Shown here: piece by piece, positions 1,136-19,200 of the stretch | Numbering within the stretch: position 1 is the stretch's first letter | How the letters are laid out: each line of letters begins with the position of its first letter | Virus record (IMG/VR): IMGVR_UViG_3300032086_003056 | Location: 1-24,347 of that record | DNA: 24,347 bases | From: a virus | Strand: one strand, 5' to 3' | Program-made: the position numbers and the translations under genes | Notes under the pieces: model-generated | Database searches by the model: none | What the model saw: the letters and a program-made list of their open reading frames with translations, nothing else | What the model was told of the DNA's origin: nothing

Positions 1136-1338
1136 AAGCCCAACACTCTTCCATTCCCTGCAATAATAGCAAAACATGTCACAATATGTAACACAATCCA
1201 AAATGTTCTAAATGCTAAAGCTCTTATTACATCTTTTTGAGGAATTGGCAAGAATTCAGGTTTATCTTCATCATTTAAGCCTATTGGCATTCCTACAGTT
1301 CTTGCCCATAATTTTAAAAATCTACGTTGACCGCTCAT
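1129..1338 (-). CDS. Small membrane protein, unknown function
   Basis: A 69-residue protein with a basic, proline-containing N-terminal half (about residues 1-42) and one hydrophobic segment, RTFWIVLHIVTCFAIIAG at about residues 44-61, long enough for a single membrane span. The tail is only about eight residues (ending GRVLGFW). Its ATG overlaps the TGA of the ATP-grasp gene by four bases (ATGA), so the two are probably translationally coupled. I do not recognise a family. A small inner-membrane protein with the N-terminus in the cytoplasm is the simplest reading (basic residues flank the N-side). Confidence 0.75.
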   Translation of the reverse strand: MSGQRRFLKLWARTVGMPIGLNDEDKPEFLPIPQKDVIRALAFRTFWIVLHIVTCFAIIAGNGRVLGFW

Positions 1339-2156
1339 ATAATGCCATAATCTTTTTGCAGTTTTGGATTTATGATTTTCATTATGTCTTTTGCTTTGTA
1401 GTTACCACGTCGTGGCAATGGTTCTATTTCTGCTATATAAAACTTATCACTGTCTTCTTGTGTGATTACATCAATACGTATAAAGTCAAAATACTTTGCT
1501 ATTGGTTTGCAAACCGCAATTTGTTGATTCCATGATTTTGGTTTTACAAAGGCTTGGCTAATTGCATTGACCAGTTGGGCTCCAACAGGACTTCCATCAG
1601 GCCAGACCATTGCTTCTTTTATATTAGGAGTACCTTGTTCTATATTATACACAGTTTGAGTCATAAAATGATCTCCATAGATAAAAAAGTGTTTATAATC
1701 TACAATATCATTTAAAGCAGATTCGCTAAAATACAAAGGAGTGCCGCATTTTTGATATTCGTATAAACCAAAACTTTCCTTTTGATATAAAGTTAGCAGA
1801 TCATTTTTAAACTTAGAATATCCATTATAATCGGTTGCATCTGTAGTACGTCCTAAGCAAAACTTCCCGTCTTGAATCCTAGCATTTAATCCTGAATATA
1901 AATTACATTTGAGATAAAAATTAGGAATTTTGGTTTTTTCAAAAACTACAGCAGGATCTTTGTCTATAACTAAAGGAGGTAAGATATGTTCTGTGCTAAC
2001 AAAATCCTGCATCCATGTTTTGACTTTTAATTTATCATTTGTCAGCAAAAACAAATCAAGATTATTGTTTTTCATAGATTCAGCACATGCACGGATAAAT
2101 TTATTCCATGGGCTTGCTTTACGATCAAACTTATCTCTTAATTTGTAGTTGTTCAC
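1335..2156 (-). CDS. TupA-like ATP-grasp family protein (putative)
   Basis: A 273-residue protein with a GTG start that shares one base with the TAG stop of the upstream mazG-like gene (TAGTG). The C-terminal part has the look of TupA-type ATP-grasp enzymes of polysaccharide biosynthesis: a hydrophobic strand with YFDFIRIDV (about residues 223-231), then FYIAEIEPLPRRGNY. The acidic and Asn/Glu-like positions of this region bind Mg-ATP in the family. A basic segment near KCGTPLYF and the PDGSPVG loop lie in the middle. ATP-grasp enzymes join a carboxylate to an amine or similar nucleophile. The substrate cannot be read from the sequence; a role in modifying host-surface or virion sugars is only an inference. 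The family match is moderate because the N-terminal half is divergent. Confidence 0.6.
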   Translation of the reverse strand: MNNYKLRDKFDRKASPWNKFIRACAESMKNNNLDLFLLTNDKLKVKTWMQDFVSTEHILPPLVIDKDPAVVFEKTKIPNFYLKCNLYSGLNARIQDGKFCLGRTTDATDYNGYSKFKNDLLTLYQKESFGLYEYQKCGTPLYFSESALNDIVDYKHFFIYGDHFMTQTVYNIEQGTPNIKEAMVWPDGSPVGAQLVNAISQAFVKPKSWNQQIAVCKPIAKYFDFIRIDVITQEDSDKFYIAEIEPLPRRGNYKAKDIMKIINPKLQKDYGII

Positions 2157-2578
2157 TATAAGTCGCCGTCTTTACGATTCTCACTGTAAAATGCGTCAAA
2201 TTCTCCACCTGGATAACGTGCTTCTAGTTTCTTTACATTTTCTGCTATTACTTCGTTAGGATCTTCGCCGATTGCATTTACAGCGTTGATCCAATACCAC
2301 ATAATATCACCAAGCTCACGTTTCATATGGAAAATAGTTTCTTCGTCACATGGCTTACCTTGGAAGATCATTTTCTTTACAATCTCAGCAAACTCACCTG
2401 CTTCGCTTGCAAGTCCGATAGCACCAGTAAGAAGGCGTGCACTGTTTACTTCAGCACCGTTAACGCCTGTGTCCATATCAACCATACGATTGTACATTTG
2501 TACAACAGACTTAGATTCGTTGCTGGTTACAGCATCTACAAACTCTTTATACTTGTTTAAATCAACAATATTAGTCAT
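2156..2578 (-). CDS. mazG: MazG-type nucleoside triphosphate pyrophosphohydrolase
   Basis: A 140-residue all-alpha NTP pyrophosphatase. The metal-binding pattern ExxE...ExxD is complete: SEAGEFAE gives E59 and E62, and RELGD gives E88 and D91, in LASEAGEFAEIVKK and MKRELGDIMWYW contexts typical of MazG-like proteins. The family hydrolyses (d)NTPs to the monophosphate and pyrophosphate. Phage MazG was proposed to lower host ppGpp or to recycle nucleotides, and which applies is unresolved. The gene has its own sigma70-like promoter (2602-2630) and an AGGA site before the ATG, so it is likely expressed early. It is coupled to the ATP-grasp gene downstream by a one-base overlap. Confidence 0.88.
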   Translation of the reverse strand: MTNIVDLNKYKEFVDAVTSNESKSVVQMYNRMVDMDTGVNGAEVNSARLLTGAIGLASEAGEFAEIVKKMIFQGKPCDEETIFHMKRELGDIMWYWINAVNAIGEDPNEVIAENVKKLEARYPGGEFDAFYSENRKDGDL

Positions 2579-2601
2579 TATTCACATCCTGTTAAAAATT
2601 T

Positions 2602-2630
2602 ATACTACTATGTATTTCTAGTTATGTCAA
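2602..2630 (-). promoter_or_regulatory. Sigma70-type (early) promoter for the mazG-like gene
   Basis: On the minus strand a perfect TTGACA (2625-2630) is followed after exactly 17 bases by TAGTAT (2602-2607, four of six matches to TATAAT). The predicted start of transcription is near 2595, giving a leader of about 17 bases with an AGGA site before the ATG at 2578. A TATAAATT box (2597-2604), one base off the late consensus, overlaps it, so late transcription from the same place is possible. Confidence 0.6.
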
Positions 2631-3717
2631 CTAGTTTAATATGATGTTCAGTACATGCGGTGTATAGTTTTTTTTGTAAATGCTGAATTAATTTATTCAT
2701 CACTCTTTTGTAATGCCTATTTGTAATAAAGGGCATGATTTCTTTGATTTGAGCCAATGTTCTATTACTATACTCTGCTACTTTTTTCCTATAATTATAT
2801 TTTTGTTGTTTTTTGGTATCCTTTGTTTTCCAAAAGCTAAAAAATTTGTCTGGTATCTTTAAATCAAAAAATAGTTCATCGTACTCGTACAAGTGTAAAT
2901 TTCGTGTGTAAGTTGCTGCATCTTCTAAACTTGCTTGATAATAGTCATGGTTGAGATGTTTTGCATAATGTTGTATAAGGTGAAAGTATGTATTAAAAAA
3001 TTCCTGTAGAAATTTCTTTGCAGTTTTTTTATTAACATACTGTTTGTAAATTTGAGTATGTAGTATATATCTCCAGTGTATTGTGCTATTATATTGTATA
3101 GACGGTAATAATTCATTTAAACTAATATATGCAAGATTCCAAGTACCAGCTTCGAACCCCCCAAACTGATCAAGTTGTTTTACTTCGGGCCAATTATGAT
3201 AAAAAATTTCTTCTATTGCATGTGGACTGTTAAAATCCCTTGTGGCAAAAAGTTTTAATTCTTTTATTAAATTAGTCAACATAAATGTATACCTAGATTC
3301 ATTAACAACAATAAGATCATCAATATGTAAATTACAAGTCATGCTTAGAATTGTAGGAAAAAAATGATGTAAGTAAAATTTGTTTTTGTTCTGTACATTA
3401 TTGACATATTTGTTATTATACAAATTTACAACTGATTCTACATATTGTCTATCTGACCAATCTTTATCTAAAAAAGTATCTGTAGCTGTAGGATAAACAT
3501 CTAGCGGAGATTGCACACTGTCTGGGTAAAAATATTCGTTAGCGCTAGAAGCACTTACTTGACAATCAGATTGTAAACAGCTTAGTAAAAAATTCCCGCC
3601 AGCACCTGGAGGATAAACTAATCCAGTGTCGATGAAGCAGGGTCGCTGCACACTTGTTTGCCATAAGTCTTGGTTCATTTCCAAAACTTTTTGTTTGTGC
3701 GCAGTGACCTTATTCAT
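2608..3717 (-). CDS. Unknown protein with P-loop-like motif (possible sulfotransferase-like)
   Basis: A 369-residue protein rich in Tyr, His, Asn and Lys. Near the N-terminus a short hydrophobic strand leads into VYPPGAGGNFLLSCL (about residues 34-48), which resembles the nucleotide-phosphate loop at the start of sulfotransferases and related P-loop folds, but without the Lys of a classical Walker A. Further on, YEYDELFFDLKIPDKFF (about residues 278-294) resembles a helix seen in phage proteins of this sort. The C-terminus is basic and helical. The ATG overlaps the TGA of the 55-residue gene upstream (ATGA). A PAPS-dependent sulfotransferase is only a guess; the alternative is a lineage-specific protein of unknown fold. 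The gene itself is clear. Confidence 0.7.
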   Translation of the reverse strand: MNKVTAHKQKVLEMNQDLWQTSVQRPCFIDTGLVYPPGAGGNFLLSCLQSDCQVSASSANEYFYPDSVQSPLDVYPTATDTFLDKDWSDRQYVESVVNLYNNKYVNNVQNKNKFYLHHFFPTILSMTCNLHIDDLIVVNESRYTFMLTNLIKELKLFATRDFNSPHAIEEIFYHNWPEVKQLDQFGGFEAGTWNLAYISLNELLPSIQYNSTIHWRYILHTQIYKQYVNKKTAKKFLQEFFNTYFHLIQHYAKHLNHDYYQASLEDAATYTRNLHLYEYDELFFDLKIPDKFFSFWKTKDTKKQQKYNYRKKVAEYSNRTLAQIKEIMPFITNRHYKRVMNKLIQHLQKKLYTACTEHHIKLVDITRNT

Positions 3718-3881
3718 GAAAAGTCAATATCAATACCATTAACTGTGTATGTTGAACCGTTAAATCCTTGATCCATTTTTTCAATGTCGGACATTTTCTC
3801 ACCATTTTTACGCTCATATGGTGAAAATTCTCTTGCTTTTTTTACTACCTGTTTAGGTTTCTTTTTATTAAATATTCTCAT
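3714..3881 (-). CDS. Small basic hypothetical protein (55 residues)
   Basis: A 55-residue frame starting MRIFNKKKPKQVVKK and ending NGIDIDFS. Its ATG (3879-3881) overlaps the TGA of the groES-like gene by four bases, and its own TGA overlaps the ATG of the next gene by four bases. This double ATGA linkage makes it a real cistron despite its length. The first 20 residues are strongly basic and the rest is mixed. No domain is recognised. Without it there would be an unexplained gap of about 160 bases here. Confidence 0.82.
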   Translation of the reverse strand: MRIFNKKKPKQVVKKAREFSPYERKNGEKMSDIEKMDQGFNGSTYTVNGIDIDFS

Positions 3882-4270
3882 TTTTGTATAAAATCACTTG
3901 GGTCTACGGTCATGTGATCTCCGTCATTATACTCATTACCAAATATTACGTCATCAGGTTTTGTTTCACTGTACCCTAAGACTGCTGCATTATCAACCAT
4001 GCGAATAGTGCCAGTAAAATCATCTGTTTCGAAGTCCACACCCCTAGTCCAGCGGCCGTGTTCTATAAGGACCCAGTCACCGATGTCATACTCGTCAGTA
4101 TTACGAGGACCTTTGTCAAATACACGTCCCCAACGAGCGTGAACGCCGCGGGTTTTGCCATCATCACTAGATATAATCAAACCACCTTTGGTTTTTTGAT
4201 CGCCAAAATCCATGTCCGAAACAAGAACTTTATTACCAATGGCTCTCACTTTAGATTTAAACTTTTTCAT
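3878..4270 (-). CDS. 31: GroES-like co-chaperonin (T4 gp31-type)
   Basis: A 130-residue protein from the ATG at 4270 (MKKFKSKVRAIGNKVLV); an in-frame start at 4300 lies inside the upstream gene and is less likely because AGAGGA precedes 4270. The GroES signature is present: VRAIGNKVLV, the mobile-loop-like KTKGGLIIS (about residues 26-34), then GRVFDKGP and YDIGDWVLIEHG (the GD of the second beta segment). A C-terminal extension of about 35 residues follows. In T4, gp31 replaces host GroES so that GroEL can fold the major capsid protein gp23. The gene is one base from the stop of the upstream gene and overlaps the gene downstream. Confidence 0.85.
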   Translation of the reverse strand: MKKFKSKVRAIGNKVLVSDMDFGDQKTKGGLIISSDDGKTRGVHARWGRVFDKGPRNTDEYDIGDWVLIEHGRWTRGVDFETDDFTGTIRMVDNAAVLGYSETKPDDVIFGNEYNDGDHMTVDPSDFIQK

Positions 4271-4271
4271 A

Positions 4272-4511
4272 TTAGTCCTCTTGCGGCCCTGGATCTGCAA
4301 TTACTGCATCATTGTTTTTGTAATACTCAGCTAACACTTCTTCTCTAGTACGAACAATTTTTCCGCCTGGACCTATTTCGTCACCTCTAGCATTAACGTT
4401 CATGTTTCCTACTGCTGGAGTTAACTCATTTTTCTTACGCAGCATATCCATGTCTACTAACTTGCCACGCATAGTTCGATGTTGTTTTCTACCTGGATTC
4501 TTTTGTACCAT
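4272..4511 (-). CDS. Conserved small phage protein, unknown function
   Basis: A 79-residue soluble protein, basic at the N-terminus (MVQKNPGRKQHRTMRGK) and acidic at the C-terminus (ending ADPGPQED). The middle is Asn/Gly-rich (VGNMNVNARGDEIGPGGK) and is followed by a predicted helix with TREEVLAEYYKNN. A strong AGGAG site overlaps the queD-like stop codon (TAAGGAG), and the stop lies one base from the groES-like start, so the three are one operon. The sequence resembles small proteins I associate with T4-like marine phages, but I know of no assigned function. A virion or chaperone partner role cannot be told from the sequence. Confidence 0.75.
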   Translation of the reverse strand: MVQKNPGRKQHRTMRGKLVDMDMLRKKNELTPAVGNMNVNARGDEIGPGGKIVRTREEVLAEYYKNNDAVIADPGPQED

Positions 4512-4521
4512 TTAACTCTCC

Positions 4522-4995
4522 TTAGTCAAACTCGTTGTCTTCTCTATGACCAACACGCATACTCATGTTAGCATCTGTTTCGCGAACTTCTACTTTAGAA
4601 CACCAAACACGTTCTCCGGGTTCCCAACTTGGTAAGAATATAGTGTTGATGTATTCATACAAGAAATCAGCAATACCTTCACACCCGGTTTTTTCAACTT
4701 CTGTAATCTTTGCAAGGCCAAGTTCACCTAGTTTAAGTAGATGTTCACGTTGCGGATCATCCTCTGCAACTAGCAGTGTGTGATCAAACCAGTCTTCAAG
4801 TTTATCTTTTAGCGGTCGTAAACCGCCAAAATCCACAACCCAATTACGAGCATCTAGATCATCTGTTTCAAATTCAAAATGAAAAGAAAATGCATAGCCA
4901 TGTACTAGATTACAATGACTATCTGCTCGCCATTGGCGGTATGCACAAGGTGCAATTTGTCTATATGTTTTTGTACTAATGTATTTTTTACTCAT
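4522..4995 (-). CDS. queD: QueD/6-pyruvoyl-tetrahydropterin synthase-like protein
   Basis: A 157-residue T-fold protein. Features of QueD/PTPS: SHCNLVHGYAF (Cys28 at the catalytic Cys position and His32 at a zinc position), NWVVDFGGL (like the VxDFxxL of the family), a FDHTLL motif and the C-terminal VRETD with the pterin-binding Glu. QueD makes 6-carboxy-tetrahydropterin from dihydroneopterin triphosphate, the first committed step to preQ0 and queuosine. By alignment with E. coli QueD, the zinc ligands H16 and H33 fall on Tyr19 and Tyr34, so either zinc is bound differently (His27 may help) or the reaction has changed. No folE, queE or queC gene is seen here, so a complete phage preQ0 pathway is not shown. 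The fold call is firm; the substrate is not. Confidence 0.8.
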   Translation of the reverse strand: MSKKYISTKTYRQIAPCAYRQWRADSHCNLVHGYAFSFHFEFETDDLDARNWVVDFGGLRPLKDKLEDWFDHTLLVAEDDPQREHLLKLGELGLAKITEVEKTGCEGIADFLYEYINTIFLPSWEPGERVWCSKVEVRETDANMSMRVGHREDNEFD

Positions 4996-5014
4996 ATCTA
5001 ATCCCGTGTATTAC

Positions 5015-5548
5015 TTATCTTAAAAATTCTTTGTAGTCTAAATTATATTTAAAGCTATCTACTTTGTGTATACCTATTAAATATAGCACGTAACTAGCTA
5101 CAGAGCTACCTCGCCCTACGCCCCATACAATGTTATTTTCTCGCATGAAGTCTACTAGATAAATCAAATATCTTAACAGATCATACATACCATGTTTTTC
5201 ATATTCTCTCAATTCGTCTTTTATTCGTCTTATTCTTTTTTCATTATGATGTCTAAGATACTGTGCATCATAAAGCCATTGAACTACATCTAGTTGTTTA
5301 TATGTATCAGGCATTAACCATTCTGATTGACACACTGCATCAAACTGTGTTTTGTCTACATCTAAAGGAATATATTTTTGTAACTTATCAAGACCTTGTG
5401 TTTCCATAGCAGTGTTAAACTTATCTACTTCGTCACTTGGTTCGCATAAAACAACATGGCATTTGTTAGCATTGCCACTGTAAATCATATCGATAAGATT
5501 TTGATTGGTGAAACGAGGTACACCTAGATGATCTGTTTTCATAAGCAT
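5015..5548 (-). CDS. Stand-alone DnaE-like (DNA polymerase III alpha) fragment
   Basis: A 177-residue protein whose C-terminal third matches the start of the palm domain of bacterial PolIII alpha: a helical YEKHGMYDLLRYLIYLVDF stretch, then IVWGVGRGSSVASYV and a final YNLDYKEFLR, parallel to the GPGRGSxAGSxV and FERFLN blocks of DnaE. It stops right after the FERFL equivalent, so the catalytic Asp motifs that follow in DnaE are absent and it cannot be a complete polymerase. Two starts are possible, 5548 and 5542 (MLMKTD). A sigma70-like promoter ends only six bases before 5548. It could be a diverged accessory protein using the GRGSS nucleotide-binding loop, or a decoy of the host polymerase; neither is shown. 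Confidence 0.75.
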   Translation of the reverse strand: MLMKTDHLGVPRFTNQNLIDMIYSGNANKCHVVLCEPSDEVDKFNTAMETQGLDKLQKYIPLDVDKTQFDAVCQSEWLMPDTYKQLDVVQWLYDAQYLRHHNEKRIRRIKDELREYEKHGMYDLLRYLIYLVDFMRENNIVWGVGRGSSVASYVLYLIGIHKVDSFKYNLDYKEFLR

Positions 5549-5553
5549 GTATT

Positions 5554-5582
5554 ATTTTAATCTATATTGATTAAATTGTCAA
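5554..5582 (-). promoter_or_regulatory. Sigma70-type promoter before the DnaE-like gene
   Basis: On the minus strand TTGACA (5577-5582) is separated by 17 bases from TAAAAT (5554-5559, five of six matches to TATAAT). The expected start of transcription (about 5546-5548) coincides with the ATG at 5548, so a transcript from here would be leaderless or start translation at 5542. The match could be chance in AT-rich DNA, but the perfect -35 and spacing equal those at 2602-2630 and 23180-23208. Confidence 0.45.
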
Positions 5583-5775
5583 GATCATTATTGCCTTGAT
5601 CTGGTTTATTTTTAAATTTACGTTCTTCTAATTCAATTTTAAATAAGTCAATTGCACTAGCAATTTGCTCTTGTAATTGTTGATTAGCACCTGCAATAAA
5701 GTATTTTCTAGACAAGTCGTCTATTTTTTCGAGAATTTCTTTTTCAGATAAATCACTGAGATTACCTAGTATCAT
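5557..5775 (-). CDS. Small helical hypothetical protein
   Basis: A 72-residue protein that looks almost wholly alpha-helical: LSEKEILEKIDDLSRKYF, then QQLQEQIASAIDLFKIELEERK, then an acidic tail (NNDLDNLINID). Its ATG overlaps the TGA of the upstream structural gene by four bases, so it is made from the same late transcript. Similar small helical proteins occur near neck or baseplate genes in T4-like marine phages as I remember them, but no function is known to me. A tail-assembly partner is a guess from position. Confidence 0.75.
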   Translation of the reverse strand: MILGNLSDLSEKEILEKIDDLSRKYFIAGANQQLQEQIASAIDLFKIELEERKFKNKPDQGNNDLDNLINID

Positions 5776-6335
5776 GGTGTATCATATAAGCCCAAATACT
5801 TGCCAAACACAGTTACACCGCCGTTTGTTGTCCATAATTCAACAAATACAGGATCATTTGTGCTACTTACAGTAAACGAACTAGGCCAACTTGTATCTAC
5901 TTTCAGTGTTCCGCCGTTAGCAACTATCCAAGATAAGGTCCTTGATGATCCGTCGCTAGTGAGTTGCAATAACATTTTTGCATACTTAGAACTAGCAGGC
6001 CAATTACTCAAAGTAAGTGTAATATTTGCAGAAGCTTGTATAGTTTGATATGGCGCATTAGCCCAATCAACTTCTAAATCACCTGCTACAGAACCGTATG
6101 AATATACAGATTGTGTCCAGTTTTCTAATCTAGTGTTAGCAATTTTTACACCGTTAAAATCATTATCTGCGTTTAGTTTTGCAGTGTTAGTTTGCAGTGA
6201 TTCTATTTCGCTTTTTGCAGCTACAAGACTGTTTTTGATCAAATTAAAGTTATCTCTAAAACCTTGACTATTATTGTCTTGACCTGCTACTGGATAGTTA
6301 GCATCTATATTGTCAGCTGTAATACTACTTGCCAT
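5772..6335 (-). CDS. Fibre/baseplate-like structural protein with short N-terminal module
   Basis: A 187-residue protein. Residues 1-45 (MASSITADNIDANYPVAG... QGFRDNFNLIKNSL) are a diverged form of the N-terminal module shared by the 225- and 2268-residue fibre proteins in this window. The rest is beta-rich with Thr/Ser and Trp repeats (ITLTLSNWP, LSWIVANGG, VFGKYLGLYD) as in phage fibre tips or small beta-barrel domains. A perfect TATAAATA late box lies 22 bases before the ATG and GAGGAA serves as ribosome site. It likely belongs to the virion and is made late. The exact place in the tail is unknown. Confidence 0.7.
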   Translation of the reverse strand: MASSITADNIDANYPVAGQDNNSQGFRDNFNLIKNSLVAAKSEIESLQTNTAKLNADNDFNGVKIANTRLENWTQSVYSYGSVAGDLEVDWANAPYQTIQASANITLTLSNWPASSKYAKMLLQLTSDGSSRTLSWIVANGGTLKVDTSWPSSFTVSSTNDPVFVELWTTNGGVTVFGKYLGLYDTP

Positions 6336-6356: not shown

Positions 6357-6364
6357 TATTTATA
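6357..6364 (-). promoter_or_regulatory. T4-type late promoter (TATAAATA)
   Basis: The minus strand reads TATAAATA exactly, the T4 late consensus recognised by gp55 sigma with gp33 and the gp45 clamp. It sits just after the stop codon of the amidinotransferase gene and 22 bases before the ATG of the 187-residue structural gene, leaving a leader of about 16 bases with a GAGGAA ribosome site. Confidence 0.75.
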
Positions 6365-7672
6365 CTAAAAATAATTTTGCATGCCGCCTTCGCGAACAGT
6401 ATCAAGTGTTAAACAATGTAAACCGCCATCCCAAAAATTTCTATGTCTAAATCTACAGTATATTGGCTCTACGCCGTGTTTTTCAAGTGCGTTGTGCACA
6501 TCTTTTTGGTAATTCAAAGATAAAATAGTTTCTGGATTGACACTGAGCATGTTGACTTCGAAAAGTGTCTCTTCAGCATATCCAACCCACTCATTTAACC
6601 AACTATCAACAAAGTCAATTATTTCAGGATTTTCTTTGTTAAATGGACTCCACCATCTACCTTGTGTTTCAGCTTTATCATTTTTCCAACTTCCCCAATC
6701 ATGTTGCATTTGTCCTGTATGATCAATTTGAACTATATCCCATCCCGGGAATGTGGTTTTATAAAAATCAGGATCTTCCCACGGGGCACAGATTAGCAAG
6801 CCTGGCCTAGGTAAGTTTATACTACCGTCATTATGACCACCAATTGCCGCAGTTACTTGCTGGAATTCTGTAAATTTAGTCATAACCTTGTCAATAGATT
6901 TAAAATCTTGTATATCGCATATAATTTTATCTCCTACTCGAGTAACACATGGAGCAAAACTACTATGGCTTACTTTACTGATTAATTGTAAAAAATAATG
7001 ATGGTCGTTATTTGTAGGATCCGCTGTGTCCCAAAATTCCAAACATTCTTCCCATGTTTGAAAAGGCTTAATACCGTTCCATGGGTGTCGTCTAAATTCG
7101 CCAAAAATTTGGTTTCTTACTTGATCGTCACTTTGTGCAATAGGTCCAACAGGGCCAACTTTTTCACCTCTAGCTAGACCGTCGTATTGTAATCTTGCAG
7201 CATCAACTAAGCTGGAGTCAGTGATATTAGGATTGACAAGAACATCTCTAGTATTGGTTTCGAACATAGTGTGTGCTAGTTCTAAATAGTAATGATCGGC
7301 AGATGTAACGTAAAATTTATCTCCCATAACTAAAAATTGATCTCGCGGAGTGATAGGAGGTTTTGGAACTTGTCCGAATGTTACTCTATGTCGATTTTCG
7401 AACCATTCCATAATTGTAGTAGGCGAACCAATTTCTTGTCGCATATTATAAAGTGGATCTAAGCGAACAACATCAACGCCAAAGTCTTCTAAAGTTTTTT
7501 GTATATTATCAAGATCTTCCCTAGTTTCGCTTACTAGTCTTTGCATAAGATCACGAAGTTTATGATCTTTCATATCCTCAAAAAACTCTGGGGGGTAGCA
7601 ATCGCCTAGTACAACTTGCTTTAATGGATCCCAGCCGTTGTAACTGTTTACTTTATCTATTCTATATGTCAT
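6365..7672 (-). CDS. Glycine/inosamine-type amidinotransferase
   Basis: A 435-residue pentein-fold enzyme. It starts with the family-like VNSYNGWDPLKQVVLGD, has a D(K)FYVTSADHYY segment, the GGHNDGSINLPRPGLL block with H280 at the catalytic His position, and the C-terminal WDGGLHCLTLD with C420 as the nucleophile that takes the amidino group. The length fits AGAT/StrB-like enzymes, which move an amidino group from arginine to an amine such as glycine to give guanidinoacetate. The acceptor here is unknown. The gene overlaps the next upstream gene by 11 bases and ends directly before a late promoter. It closes a tight five-gene run that begins with the 929-residue structural gene. Family call firm, substrate open. 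Confidence 0.88.
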   Translation of the reverse strand: MTYRIDKVNSYNGWDPLKQVVLGDCYPPEFFEDMKDHKLRDLMQRLVSETREDLDNIQKTLEDFGVDVVRLDPLYNMRQEIGSPTTIMEWFENRHRVTFGQVPKPPITPRDQFLVMGDKFYVTSADHYYLELAHTMFETNTRDVLVNPNITDSSLVDAARLQYDGLARGEKVGPVGPIAQSDDQVRNQIFGEFRRHPWNGIKPFQTWEECLEFWDTADPTNNDHHYFLQLISKVSHSSFAPCVTRVGDKIICDIQDFKSIDKVMTKFTEFQQVTAAIGGHNDGSINLPRPGLLICAPWEDPDFYKTTFPGWDIVQIDHTGQMQHDWGSWKNDKAETQGRWWSPFNKENPEIIDFVDSWLNEWVGYAEETLFEVNMLSVNPETILSLNYQKDVHNALEKHGVEPIYCRFRHRNFWDGGLHCLTLDTVREGGMQNYF

Positions 7673-7994
7673 CTGGAAAGTCTCTGTATAAAAAATGTTG
7701 TATTGTTTCTATGTCTACTAAATGGTTAAAACCTACATGTTCACCTTCGATATTTTCTTCATTACGAATAACGCTAGTCATTGCATCATCTAACTGCTGC
7801 ATGTTACTGAATTCCATGTCAATTCTAAATTCAGGTAGATCCATGGATCTAAATCCTAGCTTCATCCTTGTGATACGATAAGTTTCCATGCGTCGAAGCT
7901 TTACCATTTTATCAAGAAACTTTTTCATAAGTCTTACAAACTCATGTGCATTTGTATCTTCACTGTGGTCAGCATAAATTGTATAAACGTCCAT
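7662..7994 (-). CDS. Small alpha-beta protein (DUF6614-like, tentative)
   Basis: A 110-residue protein beginning MDVYTIYADHSEDTNAHEFV, with RRMETYRITRMKLGF (about residues 34-48), LPEFRIDMEFSN, and ending HFLYRDFPDDI. The order strand-helix-strand-strand-helix-strand suggests a ferredoxin-like dimeric alpha-beta barrel. The YRITRxKLG and LYRDFPD blocks recall a family I remember as DUF6614, found in marine bacteria; that name is from memory and not checked. It overlaps amidinotransferase by 11 bases and the gene upstream by one base (TAATG), so it is part of the same translation-coupled cassette. Function unknown. Confidence 0.75.
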   Translation of the reverse strand: MDVYTIYADHSEDTNAHEFVRLMKKFLDKMVKLRRMETYRITRMKLGFRSMDLPEFRIDMEFSNMQQLDDAMTSVIRNEENIEGEHVGFNHLVDIETIQHFLYRDFPDDI

Positions 7995-8425
7995 TATGGA
8001 AGTGGTCCTAGAATTTCAAATCCGTCTAATTTTTCTTTATACTTATCAGCTAATCCTAGGTACAAGAATTTATATCCTTTGTCTTTGTAATATCTGCACT
8101 CGTGTTGTAAACTTGCATAACCTAACCTAAGTTTTGGATTTTTATAGTCCCACGCAAATTGTAATGATTCAGCATGCTCGTCATCGAATAAATGTATTAA
8201 GCTAAAGGCAACCAATCTGTCACTATCAAAATATCCAATTACATCACACGCATTATAATCACTATCAAAAATAGGCATAACACTTTTAAATTGTTTGTAA
8301 ACACAATAATCTTTGTAAATTTGATTAAGATTGTCAATTGGCGGTGAGTCTAGCATTTTTGCATTTGGTAAAAGTTCATAGTTAGTTTTAGATAAATTTA
8401 TTCTAGAATATATTAGTTCATTCAA
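7994..8425 (-). CDS. GNAT-fold acyltransferase, arginyl-tRNA-protein transferase (ATE)-like
   Basis: A 143-residue protein. The C-terminal half, from LVAFSLIHLFDD through SLQFAWDYKNPKLRLGYASLQHECRY to YKFLYLGLADKYKEKLDGFEILGP, has the same order of elements as the C-terminal domain of bacterial ATE/Aat-like aminoacyl-transferases (a strand, a YDP-like turn, a long helix, then YLYLGY and a K-F-x-P tail). It is shorter than full ATE (about 240 residues) and lacks the N-terminal Cys cluster. Such enzymes move an amino acid from aminoacyl-tRNA to a protein N-terminus. That activity is inferred, not shown. It overlaps its neighbours by one and four bases. Confidence 0.65.
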   Translation of the reverse strand: MNELIYSRINLSKTNYELLPNAKMLDSPPIDNLNQIYKDYCVYKQFKSVMPIFDSDYNACDVIGYFDSDRLVAFSLIHLFDDEHAESLQFAWDYKNPKLRLGYASLQHECRYYKDKGYKFLYLGLADKYKEKLDGFEILGPLP

Positions 8426-8907
8426 CTATCTCTCCATGCTACAACGCTTTGATAATTTTCATTACTCCAGTTTTTGTAATAGCCTTGGTCTTTTAATATT
8501 TTACTTGCTTCTGATAGTTTAGATGCACGCTGCAATAAAACAAGAATCGCTTTTCCAAAATTCATTGTTTCACCATTAATTATTTCTGCATCTTTAGGAT
8601 GATCTTCTAAAGCAACAAGATCAATTTCGTTGTCTTTGCATTCTTGATTAAACTGATCTACAATTTGTTGTAATTCAGATACAGTAAACTGGTCTTGGTT
8701 AGCAAAACAAGCTACAACTTCAAAGCTATCATCCCAGCTATCTTTTAACCTAGCGAATTCTTCAGTAAGACTTTGTGAATTGCAATCTACATACCTAATT
8801 GACTTTTTCAACAAGGCTTTTTTTGCAAACGGACAGGGAATTGCATCTAATTTTTTACTTTTTACAGATACAAAATTCAGTATCCATTCTTCGATTTCAG
8901 TTTGCAT
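8422..8907 (-). CDS. Unknown protein with CPFA motif
   Basis: A 161-residue protein starting MQTEIEEWILNFVSVKSKKL, with PCPFAKKALLKKSI at about residues 24-37 and a later alpha/beta part (FEVVACFANQ, DLVALEDHPKD, FGKAILVLLQRASKL). The CPFA segment after an N-terminal helix resembles small proteins of unknown function in aquatic bacteria; whether the Cys binds a metal or a substrate is unknown. Its ATG shares a base with the stop of the 929-residue gene (TAATG) and its TGA overlaps the ATG of the GNAT-like gene by four bases. Placement in the amidinotransferase cassette suggests a joint pathway, which is an inference. Confidence 0.72.
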   Translation of the reverse strand: MQTEIEEWILNFVSVKSKKLDAIPCPFAKKALLKKSIRYVDCNSQSLTEEFARLKDSWDDSFEVVACFANQDQFTVSELQQIVDQFNQECKDNEIDLVALEDHPKDAEIINGETMNFGKAILVLLQRASKLSEASKILKDQGYYKNWSNENYQSVVAWRDS

Positions 8908-11720: not shown

Positions 11721-12398
11721 TTAGATACTTCCGAAATCACTGGTTAATGATGCAGGGCTTGTGAAACTGCCATAATCAATTGTAGTAGTGGCAATAATAT
11801 ATGAGCCGACAGTAGTTACATTTTGTATAAATCCGCCAAAATCTAATGCATTAGAATCATCTGTAACAGTCACACCATTTACTGTGCCAACCACGTTACC
11901 TATAAAGCTATTTGCAGTTATTGATCCTACGTTTGTAATATTGTTACTATTTGCGTTAAGGGTTCCACCTAGTGTAGGAGAAGTGTCTAACGCAACTAAA
12001 CCGTTAGGGTCAATAGCAACATTTACATCGTTACTTGTAATTGTTGTATCAATATTTGTGCCGCCCTTGATACCAAAAAACTTTCCAGTACCGGATACGC
12101 TTACACTGTCTGAATCTGTTTGTATTGTAAAAGCTTCTGTACTGCTTATTGTTATTTCGTCATTGGTGCTACTAAGGTTAATATTATTTCCAGCTTTTAA
12201 ACTCTTGTAGTACTGAACATTGTTTTCTTTTGTATAAAAAACACCTTCACCTGTGCCTAAATTTTCTATGGTATTGTTAAAATCAAAACGTTGATCTAAA
12301 TCTGCAAAGTTTGTGTTAACTTTTTGGAACGCTTGCCTTAGATTATCCCCTGTGCCATCGTTAGCAATGTTACCTATGTTAATTGTTTGAACTGCCAT
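11721..12398 (-). CDS. Fibre-like structural protein with DGTGD module
   Basis: A 225-residue protein. Residues 1-35 (INIGNIANDGTGDNLRQAF then VNTNFADL) are the same module as at the start of the 2268-residue fibre, and DTSPTLGGTLNANSNNI (about 139-155) repeats a second block of that protein. The remainder is low-complexity, Ser/Thr/Asn-rich beta sequence. The ATG follows a GGAGAGA ribosome site, 11 bases after the stop of the 275-residue gene. The N-terminal module probably trimerises or docks these proteins onto a common site, while the rest differs. Made late; position in the tail unknown. Confidence 0.75.
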   Translation of the reverse strand: MAVQTINIGNIANDGTGDNLRQAFQKVNTNFADLDQRFDFNNTIENLGTGEGVFYTKENNVQYYKSLKAGNNINLSSTNDEITISSTEAFTIQTDSDSVSVSGTGKFFGIKGGTNIDTTITSNDVNVAIDPNGLVALDTSPTLGGTLNANSNNITNVGSITANSFIGNVVGTVNGVTVTDDSNALDFGGFIQNVTTVGSYIIATTTIDYGSFTSPASLTSDFGSI

Positions 12399-13265: not shown

Positions 13266-16200
13266 TTATTTTCCTACTAAGGCTTCAACAACACCCTTGT
13301 CTGCATCATCTTTAATACCTATTGCACGACCAAGTATTGTTCCCACTTTAGGATCATTATCAACAACAGCATATCCCGGAACTGCACTAGTAACTAATAT
13401 GTCACCTTTTTCAACTTTTCCTATTACCTTTACAGGTACACGTCCTACAAGTGCAATACAAGTTGCAATACCAGGACAGTCTTGGTTCATTGTAAATGCT
13501 GCTGTGTTAGAAACCACCCCTGCTACTCTTGTTGACTTGTGCTCTGTGCAGCCTGTGACTTCTTTTTCGCCACCGAACACTAATACTGTGCCAACTTCGT
13601 ATGTATGATCAGCTTCATAATATTCTGCAATGTCTGCATATGTTGCTTCGAATCGTGATCCTACAGTAAGAGTCCAGTTGCCTGTAACAGTACCTGCTGT
13701 TGCACTTCCGCCTGTTGTAAGATTGGTAGTTTGCACATACCCGGAAGTCATTGTCAAGTTTCCTGAAGAAACTGTCAAGTCACCAGATGAAACTGTCAGA
13801 CCTGAGTCATTTGTAACAGTACGCACAATGCCGTTAGTTACTGCGATAATCGTATCAGCTGCAGACTCGGCAAAACCGCCACCTGCTCCTAAGCCAATAC
13901 CCATGCTGCTAGCACCTTTTTCTGTAGCAGCTTCTAAGAAGTTTGTGTAAATCCAAGTAGACGCTAGTTTACTTGTGCTTGTACTATAGCTACTAGCATC
14001 TTGGAATGTGCTGTTGTCTACGTTAGCAATATCGCCTACTTGAACTGCGCCACCTGTTTCTAATGTAGGAGTAGCACCTTCGCCTCTTAGTAATACACCG
14101 CCTGCTGTAGTTTTAAGCACAGTATCAGTGCCGTCCACGTCAAGTATTTGATTACCGTCGATTTGATAAGCAGTAGCATCTACTTCACCTGTTGCCGAAC
14201 GCTTAACTACAGAGTTGTTTGCAGTTGTAGCTGAAAGGTTTGTCAATCCATATGACCCAGCAGCAACTTGTGTAAGCACTTTAGAGCCAGTATTATCTGT
14301 AGTAAAGTCTCCGTCAAGTATTGCATTACCTGAACTTAAAATAGTGCTAATAGAAACTTCTTCAACGTTACCTGTGCCAGCAGTAGTTCTGCCTAAAACA
14401 GTGCTTGTACTAATTTGTTCGATATCTGCTTTTGTAATACTGTTTGCTTTTACAGTTACAGCACCCGAAGTAACTGTAAAATGATCTGTATCAAAACTTG
14501 CTATACCTTTTGTGCTTGTAGTTGCGTCGTCTAAACTTAATTTGCTTTGAGCAATCGCTGCACTTGCATTTATGTCAGCGTCTACAATAACACCTGCAGA
14601 AATAGCACTTGTTATTGTATTAGCACTAGATCTTGTAAGTGTGACATCACCGCTTACAGCAGCGTCTTCCCATGAGCTTCCGCCGTACACTAGCAAGTCA
14701 CTTGTTGCAGCAGTAGAAATACTAATGTCGTTAAGTTCACTTAAACTGTCTTTAGTTGCTATCTGTGCATCAACATATGCTTTGTTTGCTGCATCTGTTG
14801 AGTTTGACGGCGGATCTAAGTTAATTATATTATTATTACCAGCATCTAAATCACCAGTCATTGCCTGTGCGCCGTTTAGCGCCATAAAACCAGGTCCTAT
14901 TTCATCAGATACAGCAATAGCACTTCCTGCTTCGTTAACATGTAAACGTCTATCAATATAACTTTGTACAGCTTTCTCAGTTGGTACAGCACTGTCAGAT
15001 TGTCCGCTCATACTATCATCTGTAGAGAATTCATTAATAGTGGCACCTAAACTAAATCCTAAGCTTTCAGCATCAGAAATACCAATACCACCTGATATAG
15101 TGGTTGTGCCTGTTGCTTGATCTATGTTAAAGAATTGCCCAACTCTAAATACACCAAATTGATCCGAGCTGTTCCAGAACACTCTACCTTTACCACGTTG
15201 CCATACTTCAGCTTTACTTGCACTAGGAGAAGTAGTAAACGGAGTAGGATCTGAGTTGTCAACTGGATCACCTAGTATATCGTTAGGGAAGTTTGTGTCG
15301 TTAAACGACCCAGCGCCTACACTCTTAAATGCCGTACTGGTTGCCCTAACTACAGCAGTTTTTTCTGTAATTTCTGCATCTACACCTTTTTCTAGCCCAG
15401 CTTTAATACTTTCGGGTACATTACCAGTGTATACTGGTTCTGCTAAACCTGCACCTGCATAGCTAGGATGAATGTTTGGTAGTGCTGCACCATTAGAATC
15501 AGTATCAGCAAATGTTATCACAGCATGTGTAACTGGGGTTGCATCGTAATTTGTAATTCTGTGCGTTCTACCAGCCCAAGTAAATAACATTCCAACTACT
15601 CGAGTAGTATTAGGGAATGAAGCCGACCCACCTGTAATTAAATTAATTGCTAAAGTAGTATTTCCTTGTGCATCGCCCTTGCCTGCAATATTTGCTATGC
15701 TGGGCTGGAGGTCAATATATTCAAATTGTTTATCAAACGTAGCTTTTACATGCGTGTTTGGTAAGTCACCGCTGTAATTGTCTTGTGTTGAAAACACAGT
15801 TGTACTATAAGAAGTATCTTGGCTTTCGGTAAATGTGAAAGTTGTATTAGGTCTTGGATCTAATGTTGTAGGGCTTGCTACATCTGCAAAAATAAACTGC
15901 GTTCCATCTCTATATTCTACTAATGTATCGTCTGCTAGATCTTGTTGTAGTGTACCAAAAAAGTTTGTAGACGAAACGTCATCTGCGGTAAAGGTTAATT
16001 CATAAACTGTGCTACTTATTACAGCTGGTGAACCTGTTGCAGTATCAACTTTCACACTGTTAATTTTATAATCTAGTGTTCGGAAGGTGCTGTCATCTGT
16101 AAGGCCTGTGATGGTCAAAATACCGCCTGCCTTAGGAGCTACCGTTACATCATATATTTTAACTGTAGTTTGACTTGTACCGGCACTGAATGTTCCGTGT

Positions 16201-19200
16201 ATTTTGGCAGGTTGTACCATAGTGTCACGTAAAGTTACTGCATCTGGAATAGTATTAGGATCGGCGCCCTCTGACACAATACCAAACTTACCAAAATTAG
16301 AAGTTGAGTTTGTAAGTTTAATATCACTTCCGTCTTTTGAATATATACTAGCTTGGTTATATGTAGATTCAATGTGATCTGCCGTAATTTTTGCACCGTT
16401 AGCAGCAACAATACCGTAGCCCAAGTCGTTTATTTGTTGGAAGTTGCCAACTGTAATACTTCTGCTACCGCCTATTTGTATAAATGTCTCTACATCTACT
16501 GAAGAACTAACGTCACCTACATAACCGGTAGAGTTGTTAGTAGTAGGATCAAGGTATAAAATACATCTGCCTAAATCTTTATCATAGTTACTGATAGCAT
16601 TAATTTGATATCTTACACCGTCTACGTAAAACACACTAGGAACTTGCGGTTCTTTTACCTTTAAACCTTGTATGCCTAATACTGAGCTGTCACCAATTAG
16701 GTCAGTGTCTTCACTTTCAACCCAAAGTGTGAATGCATCTAATGATACCGAGCCTGTAGCATCGGTAAATGTTCCACTGTTGCCACGTATTCTAATAGGT
16801 ATGCTTCCTGCATAAGCATCTGCAAATACACCACCGGCAAAAGTTTTAGTATTTGTGCTTTTGCTTACACTACTAGAATTTGCAATGTAAGGAGACTTTG
16901 TTAATATTTGCCCAACTGGATCTAATACAATACCAAATCCGCCGTGCTCTTGTATTGTGATATTTTCTACAGTTGATGCGTCATTTACAAAAAACACGTC
17001 AAGTTGATCGTTACGTAACGGCGGATTATAATCAATACTGAATACAAAATTTATCTTGTCAATTAAGTCTTGCACAGCACTTATCGAACCTGATTCACCA
17101 GACCCATTACTTAGATTAGGAACCACTTTGTCTGTTACTGTTGAGCTACCTGCTGTGTAACTACTGTCGGTATAGCTAGGTGCACTTGCACTTAATAGTG
17201 AATTGCACAAAGTATATATGTTGTCAATTGCTGCTTCTACTGCTGTTTCTGTTGAGCTATCACCTAGTCTAGAAAGATAATCAGTATCACCCACTTCGTG
17301 ATAAGATCCTTGTATTTCTAAACTTCTTTCTTCGCCGCCTTCTCCTAGGTCGTGTGCTAGTGCATCTACTAATTTATGAAAATCATCTCTGTAAGCAACT
17401 TCGTCGTAAGTTACACTTGAATGATTTGTGTTTAGGAATTGTAACGTTTCTTCTACTATATACTTTGAGTTATCTAGTAATATTTGTTTTGCTGTAGTGT
17501 AAGATCCTGCATTTGTTACAGTTGGTCCAACATTTTTAACACGGTCTGGACGATAAAGATAGTGATATCCAATTTTACCTTTTGCATTACCTTGCTGGTC
17601 ATTTAGTGTAGCACCTTGGGTAGCAGTAGTAATGCCGTCGAAGGCACTGTCTCTATAGAAGTAAGTACTAGCATGTGCACTTTGGGAGACACGCTTACGT
17701 GGTTTGACTAGTGTACGTCTAAACTCATCACCAATGAGCGATGTATTTTGCGGAATTCTAATAGGAAGATCTTCCTCGTAAGTACCACTTTCTACCAGTA
17801 TAGTTACTTGTTTTGCCCTTGTAAGATAACCTACTTCTATTTCTTCGTCTTCTAAGAAATCAATAGGAGCTAACATATTCAAGGAAAATTCTGTTTCTGC
17901 TGGACTTGTTCTATTTGTAAAACTGGTAATCTGTCCTAAAGCGCCACTCTTTTTACCTCTTATGAGTTTACTAGGAAGTGCATCAACATTTGCACTATTA
18001 GTCTGATCTAAATCTGTACCGTCATTTACAACTTTTAGTATATATTTGTTACCATAAACAATGTCTTGCCCACTTTCGGGTCCATTAGTCCATATGTTAA
18101 TAACAAGGTCTTTAAGAGACTCAGCAGCTGATGCTGCACTCAATTCATTATTGTTAACGTGTGTGCCTGACGTGTTTTGTTCGCAGTACTGCTGATATCT
18201 TAATTGTATTTTACCTTTTGTACTGTCATCTATGTAATCGCTAAAACTGCTTGTGTCATATACAGTTGTAAGTGCTGCATCTGTATAAATTTCAAAAGTG
18301 GTAGAAGTTACACTTTTTATGTAGGCAAACTTGCCTTCTAATTGATACATGCCTGGCACTGACGCAAACTTAACCAAGTTTCCGTCGGATAGGTTATGAT
18401 TTGTAGCAGTTGTTACTACACTAGGAGTACTGCCGCTAGACTTTGTGATGGCATCTATTAGTTTTTCATTGTAACCAGTATTTTCAAATATACTTGTATT
18501 AATTAGATTATACAATTGGGTAACAGCAGCACTATTTTCAGTTAAGTGTTTTTTAATTTTTACTCTGTCTGTAATTTCACTGTAAAATTTTTGTGCAAAC
18601 CTCTTTGTAAGAGCATTAGATGTAAGACCTTTATTTAAATCAAATCTTATACTATCTATAAGAGTGCCATAGTCATCTTTGAATTCATGCTGATCAAAAA
18701 CATAGTTCGGATATGTAAATTCAACATATCCTTGTATCTCTGCTACTAGATAATCTTTATTGTTTTTTAGAGCAGTATTTGCATGTGGCATGACCGGACT
18801 GTTAACAGCAAAGCCACTTTTAACCAGTGCATTCACTGTAAAATTTGTATGAGTCACAGTTTGTACGTAAGGGCCTAATGTCTCTTGTGCATAATTTACA
18901 ACTTCGTATGCATGTTCCGCGGCAGCGTTAATAGTTTTGAATGCATATGAAAGACTAGAACCTTCCTTGCCAGCAGGTGCTACAGATTGTGCATCATTGC
19001 CACTTTTACTTACAAATATGACGCTTTGTGCAGAAGAACCGCTGTTATCAACATAGTATTTAGATGCAGCTTGCAAGTCAGTGTTATTCTGTGCTTGTCC
19101 GCTTAGATCGCCGGGATGATCATTTAGGACTAAAGCACCTGTCATTTTATCGCCTTGTCTGCGAACTAGACTTTTTCTAGGAACAGGTTGATCAGACAAC

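Follow-up and report, generated by a model that had tools for sequence, protein, structure and literature searches.

Guanidine hydroxylation is carried out by haem enzymes of the YqcI/YcgG family, among them AglA, in which a thiolate haem is bound by Cys44, and ChmN, in which Cys47 is the haem ligand (PMC12866846, PMC10849742). In argolaphos synthesis, hydroxylation of an arginyl amide is the work of a haem enzyme of the YqcI/YcgG family, while a role as tRNA-dependent ligases has been proposed for GNAT proteins (PMC12866846, PMC8976061). The argolaphos cluster encodes the YqcI/YcgG enzyme AlpD together with the GNAT proteins AlpF and AlpO, described as peptide aminoacyl-tRNA ligases (PMC8976061). 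Proteins of the DUF6875 family are reported to bind haem and oxidise tryptophan (a preprint, as cited in PMC13307353). Here we describe a cassette of four phage genes whose products appear to be distant members of known enzyme families, in a combination that appears to be undescribed in phages. A search of the open-access literature for amidinotransferases in connection with cyanophages or with auxiliary genes of marine viruses returned one broad survey, on the metabolic genes of such viruses, and no account of the four-gene set; an earlier sequence-only reading of this DNA had likewise known of no described system of such composition.

The cassette lies on the minus strand of a window of 24,347 nucleotides, the whole stretch of DNA that was analysed (IMG/VR record IMGVR_UViG_3300032086_003056). 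Directly upstream is a putative tail or adhesin structural gene (11696-8907, minus strand), whose 929-aa product contains Ig-like He_PIG repeats (PF05345, 1.3e-12). There follow, all on the minus strand, the genes for a 161-aa protein referred to here as CPFA (8907-8422), a 143-aa ATE_C-like protein with a TTG start (8425-7994), a 110-aa DUF6614 protein (7994-7662) and a 435-aa amidinotransferase, AMT (7672-6365). The coordinates and the successive overlaps of 1, 4, 1 and 11 bases among these five genes had been read exactly from the sequence, and the TTG start sits within the 4-base overlap. Since the overlaps leave no intergenic room for a small open reading frame, a precursor-peptide (RiPP) reading of the cassette is disfavoured. 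The earlier remark that no promoter is visible also holds: sigma-70-like sites between 6200 and 12500 occur at chance level (27 observed, 26.6 expected) and none stands out as a promoter. A T4-late-promoter-like site, TATAAATA (6357-6364, minus strand), separates the cassette from the gene of a 187-aa putative structural protein (5772-6335, minus strand), whose N-terminal sequence is like that found in the 225-aa protein and in the 2268-aa protein. Its position after the cassette and before the next structural gene fits co-expression of the cassette with the upstream gene, and this single copy in the window is weak evidence, because 3.5 copies would be expected by chance. A megablast search for close relatives of the window among phage isolates found none; near-identical copies are present in a few IMG/VR contigs.

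Scanning IMG/VR with alignments of three of the proteins gave 380 confirmed matches for the amidinotransferase, 291 for CPFA and at least 592 for the ATE-like protein, and 80 loci were kept for each. The fetched loci were annotated by HMM, and ATE-like loci sharing most 4-mers were collapsed, leaving 63 distinct loci. CPFA neighbours the ATE-like gene in 61 of these 63, and in 50 it is the gene immediately upstream and has the same orientation; AMT is found at 34, and so is DUF6614. The orders CPFA-ATE-AMT and CPFA-ATE-DUF6614 each occur in 15/63, and the exact gene order of the window in 5/63, the window included. At several loci (among them L232, L213, L186 and L194) the cassette genes are rearranged, partly inverted and still clustered, and clustering that survives scrambling of order and strand gives good reason to see a functional unit, DUF6614 included. 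The sequence-only reading had suggested a search of viral contigs for co-occurrence and a shared order of the four families: co-occurrence was borne out, with the full order at the five loci just given. The genes were not scattered independently in relatives; dozens of divergent virus loci place members of these families next to one another, and their linkage thus exceeds chance.

The constant core of the cassette is CPFA with the ATE-like gene, and AMT and DUF6614 are variable partners, because loci with AMT only and with CPFA only exist, and AMT and DUF6614 are each absent near about half of the cores. AMT-only loci are common (26 distinct loci), and CPFA occurs without an ATE-like gene in phages S-PM2, Sf-CH11, HMO-2011 and CRP-810. 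Among 14 larger records without AMT next to the set, five carry at least one elsewhere in the same record, in some of them tens of kb away. Outside viruses the ATE-like family is nearly absent: a pattern-based scan of one genome per species, covering 84,980 species and liable to overlook distant relatives, matched one locus. It lies on a phage-like contig, assigned by binning to Bacteroidetes, where CPFA-ATE-AMT is accompanied by a series of 2OG-oxygenase-like genes. Two queries against 50,697 phage isolate records returned no ATE-like gene, and no CPFA relative was found in plasmids. The four families form a conserved, almost virus-only unit in divergent marine tailed phages. Four un- or half-annotated genes can now be treated as one testable unit, which hundreds of marine virus contigs carry and which sequenced bacterial genomes nearly lack.

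Two further gene types were considered as partners. The 2OG-Fe(II) oxygenase was rejected as a general partner, a narrow profile search having found it at 1 of 72 CPFA and ATE-like loci and at 2 of 30 CPFA-only loci. The association is present in L174, CRP-810 and Sf-CH11, and in the last two, both cultured phages, the CPFA-type gene directly follows the oxygenase gene. An extension with radical SAM and methyltransferase genes is real in five distinct loci where the cassette has the tail tube gene gp19 as its context; radical SAM nearness is weak evidence, because such matches number 4-16 in every one of the 11 large virus records with a cassette or AMT that were searched.

The 435-aa protein had been described from the sequence as a complete amidinotransferase on the basis of H280 and C420. 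As a single sequence it is weak against Pfam, and its family profile matches GATM (4.7e-30) as well as HsvA, SxtG and StrB1 (range 4.7e-30 to 5.4e-25). The equivalents of D170, H303, D305 and C407 of GATM are D111, H280, D282 and C420, each kept in 36-37 of 37 sequences; both named residues therefore stand, together with two aspartates, and it is completeness that does not. The position of GATM D254 falls at about F239 and is occupied among relatives by W (the nearest), N, S or, in a few, D, in a gapped part of the alignment. The glycine-binding S354-S355 pair of GATM corresponds to E367-E368, with E368 in 36/37. Judged by these comparisons, the protein is a divergent GATM/StrB-type amidinotransferase. 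It belongs by profile to the same fold family as GATM, StrB1, SxtG and HsvA and has the Cys, the His and two Asp equivalents in common with them, whereas it departs from GATM in having no conserved D254, acidic residues in place of the serine pair and a long variable insert. Because the D254 position is variable and the serine pair acidic, the acceptor is probably not glycine and probably carries a positive charge, or else the donor is altered.

The resemblance of the 143-aa protein to the catalytic half of an aminoacyl-tRNA-protein transferase is upheld by the ATE_C profile (PF04377), against which it scores 25.7 bits (cut-off 25) and which matches 22 of 23 relatives (best 1.2e-7). Against the NCBIfam full-length ATE equivalog it scores 21.8, with 252 needed, and the N-terminal ATE domain is absent. 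When its AlphaFold model (pLDDT 91.5) was submitted to Foldseek, MprF, A-PGS, L-PGS and ATE1 came near the top and the tRNA-dependent peptide synthase Sba18 was included; ordinary acetyl-CoA GNAT acetyltransferases were also among the matches. By profile and predicted fold, a C-terminal GNAT half is common to the phage protein, ATE1, MprF/L-PGS/A-PGS and Sba18, but the phage protein consists of one 143-aa domain without the N-terminal half. This single GNAT domain, the closest folds of which are largely tRNA-dependent transferases, is a candidate aminoacyl-tRNA-dependent transferase.

Two genes had been left as unknown. The product of one, the 110-aa protein, belongs to DUF6614 (PF20319, E 8.6e-21, 74.6 bits against a cut-off of 25), and a search of solved structures gave no useful match for it. 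The product of the other, CPFA, is DUF6875-like with a resemblance to YqcI/YcgG enzymes. C25 of CPFA is kept in 206/206 sequences and W8, A28 and Y144 are invariant too, as expected for an enzyme. DUF6875 (PF21780) is matched by 29 of 62 CPFA relatives (best 2e-5), and most of the matching stretch is the N-terminal part with the motif; the CPFA of the window reaches E 0.014 and 15.9 bits, below the cut-off of 24.5. Looking for DUF6875 in Bacteroidota returned no match and was uninformative. The YqcI/YcgG profile (PF08892) is matched by one of the 62 members, at 0.054. Aligned by hhalign with 14 YqcI/YcgG proteins, CPFA scores 30.7 over 74 columns, short of full length, with the Cys motifs aligned (probability 26%), a score that none of 300 shuffles reached (top 22.95; an earlier set of 59 topped at 25.4) and that exceeds the controls (19.6 reversed, 15-19 for unrelated families and 21.9 for one reversed). 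The order of helices and strands in its AlphaFold model (pLDDT 95.4) agrees with the sandwich fold described for AglA (a1 a2 b1 a3 b2 a4 b3 b4 a5) as far as element order goes. CPFA is likely to be remotely kin to the YqcI/YcgG enzymes, and we regard it as a DUF6875-like candidate haem-thiolate oxygenase in which C25 would be the axial ligand.

CPFA may instead be another small fold with a look-alike CPxA motif and no haem, leaving the cassette as a pathway of transferase and amidinotransferase only. To this we give a substantial probability, appreciably below one half: profile scores are weak, Foldseek with the CPFA model returned no solved structure below 0.001 (AglA was absent from the top 50), and masking the Cys motif lowers the YqcI/YcgG alignment score from 30.7 to 22.3. 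The same masked alignment still extends over 74 columns, however, and the invariant Cys, the DUF6875 matches in almost half of the members and the AglA-like order of helices and strands all speak for the haem protein. The question concerns a single component and is compatible with any of the readings of the whole set considered below. A haem-thiolate CPFA would be unusually small and would provide a function for a whole family of phage proteins, also found in cultured cyanophages and HMO-2011. The CPFA-type genes of S-PM2, Sf-CH11, HMO-2011 and CRP-810 carry the annotation 'hypothetical'.

Considered as a whole, the cassette may be a virus-specific biosynthetic or modification set that yields an oxidised, guanidinylated amino-acid-type product, a reading that we favour tentatively and place somewhat short of an even chance. 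By homology, AMT would take an amidino group from arginine, or from a donor resembling it, and pass it to an amine, the aminoacyl group of a charged tRNA would be moved to an amine by the ATE_C-like GNAT protein, and CPFA, as a small haem-thiolate oxygenase with its haem held by C25, would oxidise the amino-acid or guanidino product. Aminoacylation and amidination would build the scaffold and oxidation would come last. The likeliest product would be a small compound of guanidino-amino-acid type, either free or attached to some component of the virion. In favour of such a pathway we count the linkage, the near-absence from 84,980 species, the GATM profile, the ATE_C and Foldseek matches, the DUF6875 and YqcI/YcgG likeness and the argolaphos cluster. 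Against it we count the shortness of CPFA, the hhalign probability, the lack of a Foldseek match and the DUF6875 score of the window's CPFA, together with the missing N-terminal ATE domain, the acetyl-CoA GNAT matches, the loss of D254 in AMT and the cores that stand without AMT or DUF6614. No redox partner or substrate for the proposed pathway was picked out. The arginine-based chemistry suggested by the sequence-only reading agrees with these assignments, which plausibly put arginine or guanidine, along with charged tRNA, at the centre of the chemistry. Phages with the cassette may run an unrecognised pathway of amino-acid or guanidine modification.

The earlier observation that the set trails a structural gene holds for part of its relatives. 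Tail genes provide the context at 29 of the 63 distinct loci, in three forms: a T4-type hub or baseplate gene before or beside the cassette (16 loci, of which L134 is doubtful, being a long-branch outlier on the ATE-like tree that may be a false ATE-like match), the tail tube gene gp19 (7 loci) and, upstream, a relative of the 929-aa He_PIG protein (6 loci, with a MazG gene between in 4). In some relatives the cassette lies beside MazG, PRPP synthetase, QueD or helicase genes. On the tree of the ATE-like protein, the backbone of which is weakly resolved, all loci with the gp19 context fall into a single group with good support, whereas two changes are needed to account for the hub context. The tail-gene link thus recurs in separate lineages and is not universal. 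It could mean tail-protein modification, late expression or merely a common insertion site. In the cultured phages S-PM2 and Sf-CH11, a CPFA-type gene stands just before the baseplate gene gp25.

Direct modification of the virion, in which the cassette would aminoacylate, amidinate and oxidise a tail or baseplate protein encoded by the neighbouring gene, is plausible and not more, because the tail-gene link recurs yet is not universal; we judge it rather unlikely. The set stands behind tail genes in three or more contexts, which occupy different branches of the tree of ATE-like proteins, its first gene in the window overlaps the 929-aa gene by 1 base, and ATE enzymes act on proteins. However, other loci have the non-structural neighbours named above, AMT is distant in some records, the margins of structural genes in T4-like phages are common sites of variable, accessory insertions, and no conserved modifiable protein was found. 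A role in host metabolism, with breakdown of arginine or recycling of nitrogen during infection and guanidino compounds as by-products, appears improbable. Amidinotransferases do use up arginine and give off ornithine, metabolic genes are common in phages, and stand-alone AMTs in marine phages adjoin KdsA/KdsB or carbamoyltransferase-like genes; yet AMT is no part of the constant core, and a tRNA-dependent transferase fits catabolism poorly. Counter-defence or signalling, by which the ATE-like protein and CPFA would change a host protein or tRNA-linked defence, would suit small, strongly conserved proteins that cellular genomes nearly lack, but many loci lie near late genes, a metabolic enzyme accompanies the set and the data offer no pointer to a defence target, making it highly improbable.

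A more specific form of the biosynthetic reading, in which an oxidised guanidino-amino-acid product would be made by a haem-thiolate oxygenase of miniature size together with a GNAT transferase that consumes tRNA and an amidinotransferase, and would be attached to the virion tail, is in our estimation unlikely. If true, both this kind of virion chemistry and a phage class of haem oxygenase would be previously undescribed.

Compared with known systems, CPFA has in common with the DUF6875 haem enzymes (reported as 'cytochrome P422') and with the YqcI/YcgG enzymes AglA, ChmN, GntA and DcsA the CPxA / PCxxAxxA motif with its invariant Cys and the order of helices and strands. In this comparison of sequences and models it is remotely similar and shorter, at 141-190 aa against about 230-274 aa for YqcI/YcgG enzymes. 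The genes of S-PM2, Sf-CH11, HMO-2011 and CRP-810 belong to the same CPFA family and differ in that the two queries found no ATE-like partner there. By analogy, the bacterial logic nearest to the biosynthetic reading of the cassette is that of argolaphos (alp/agl) in Streptomyces, where a thiolate-haem guanidine oxygenase (AlpD/AglA) is paired with GNAT proteins for which the use of charged tRNA has been proposed. In contrast to the phage set, the argolaphos cluster as listed is bacterial, has enzymes for a phosphonate backbone and includes no amidinotransferase, and its proteins are very distant from those of the phages, which are short.

In the tail-tube context, where the cassette adjoins the tail tube gp19 gene, three further genes come after it in five of the fetched loci (L028, L033, L045, L048 and L049): one is methyltransferase-24-like, one encodes a twitch-domain radical SAM protein (NF033640), and the third, of 150 aa, is conserved. 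In another locus, L174, the order CPFA (the candidate haem-thiolate oxygenase), ATE-like and amidinotransferase is followed by an unbroken run of 2OG-Fe(II)-oxygenase-like genes, five or six in number and assigned by eye (2101-6106); this contig is binned as Bacteroidetes and is probably a phage. A 2OG-Fe(II) oxygenase gene also directly precedes and overlaps the CPFA gene in CRP-810 (L012) and Sf-CH11 (L013), two cultured phages unrelated to each other.

The single-cell Marine virus AG-345-D19 encodes three divergent amidinotransferases on three contigs (L007, L008 and L009). One of them adjoins carbamoyltransferase-like and sulfotransferase-like genes, also assigned by eye, and the third (L009) has G at the catalytic Cys position and also lacks the Asp of the HxD motif.

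Within the window, three putative tail proteins encoded on the minus strand (11721-12398, 13266-20072 and 5772-6335) have similar N-terminal segments, approximating DGTGDxxRxxFxxxNxNF in two of them, while the third has a variant of it; the pattern looks as though one shared attachment domain had been copied onto different fibres. Also on this strand, the 177-aa protein at 5015-5548 belongs to a free-standing DnaE-fragment family: its similarity to DNA polymerase III alpha is confined to one segment of that enzyme (PF07733, 3.1e-13), but it matches the phage family phrog_11127 end to end (6e-42). A 273-aa protein (1335-2156, minus strand) that matches the TupA-like ATP-grasp family (PF14305, 4.5e-6, above the cut-off of that family) possibly acts in sugar or polymer modification.

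Radical SAM matches (PF04055) were present in all 11 large marine virus records searched (72-352 kb, including L197, L079, L220, L024 and L233), at 4 to 16 per record, and are densely clustered in some, such as the 352-kb L197 with its 16 matches. This radical SAM complement is unusually big for phages.
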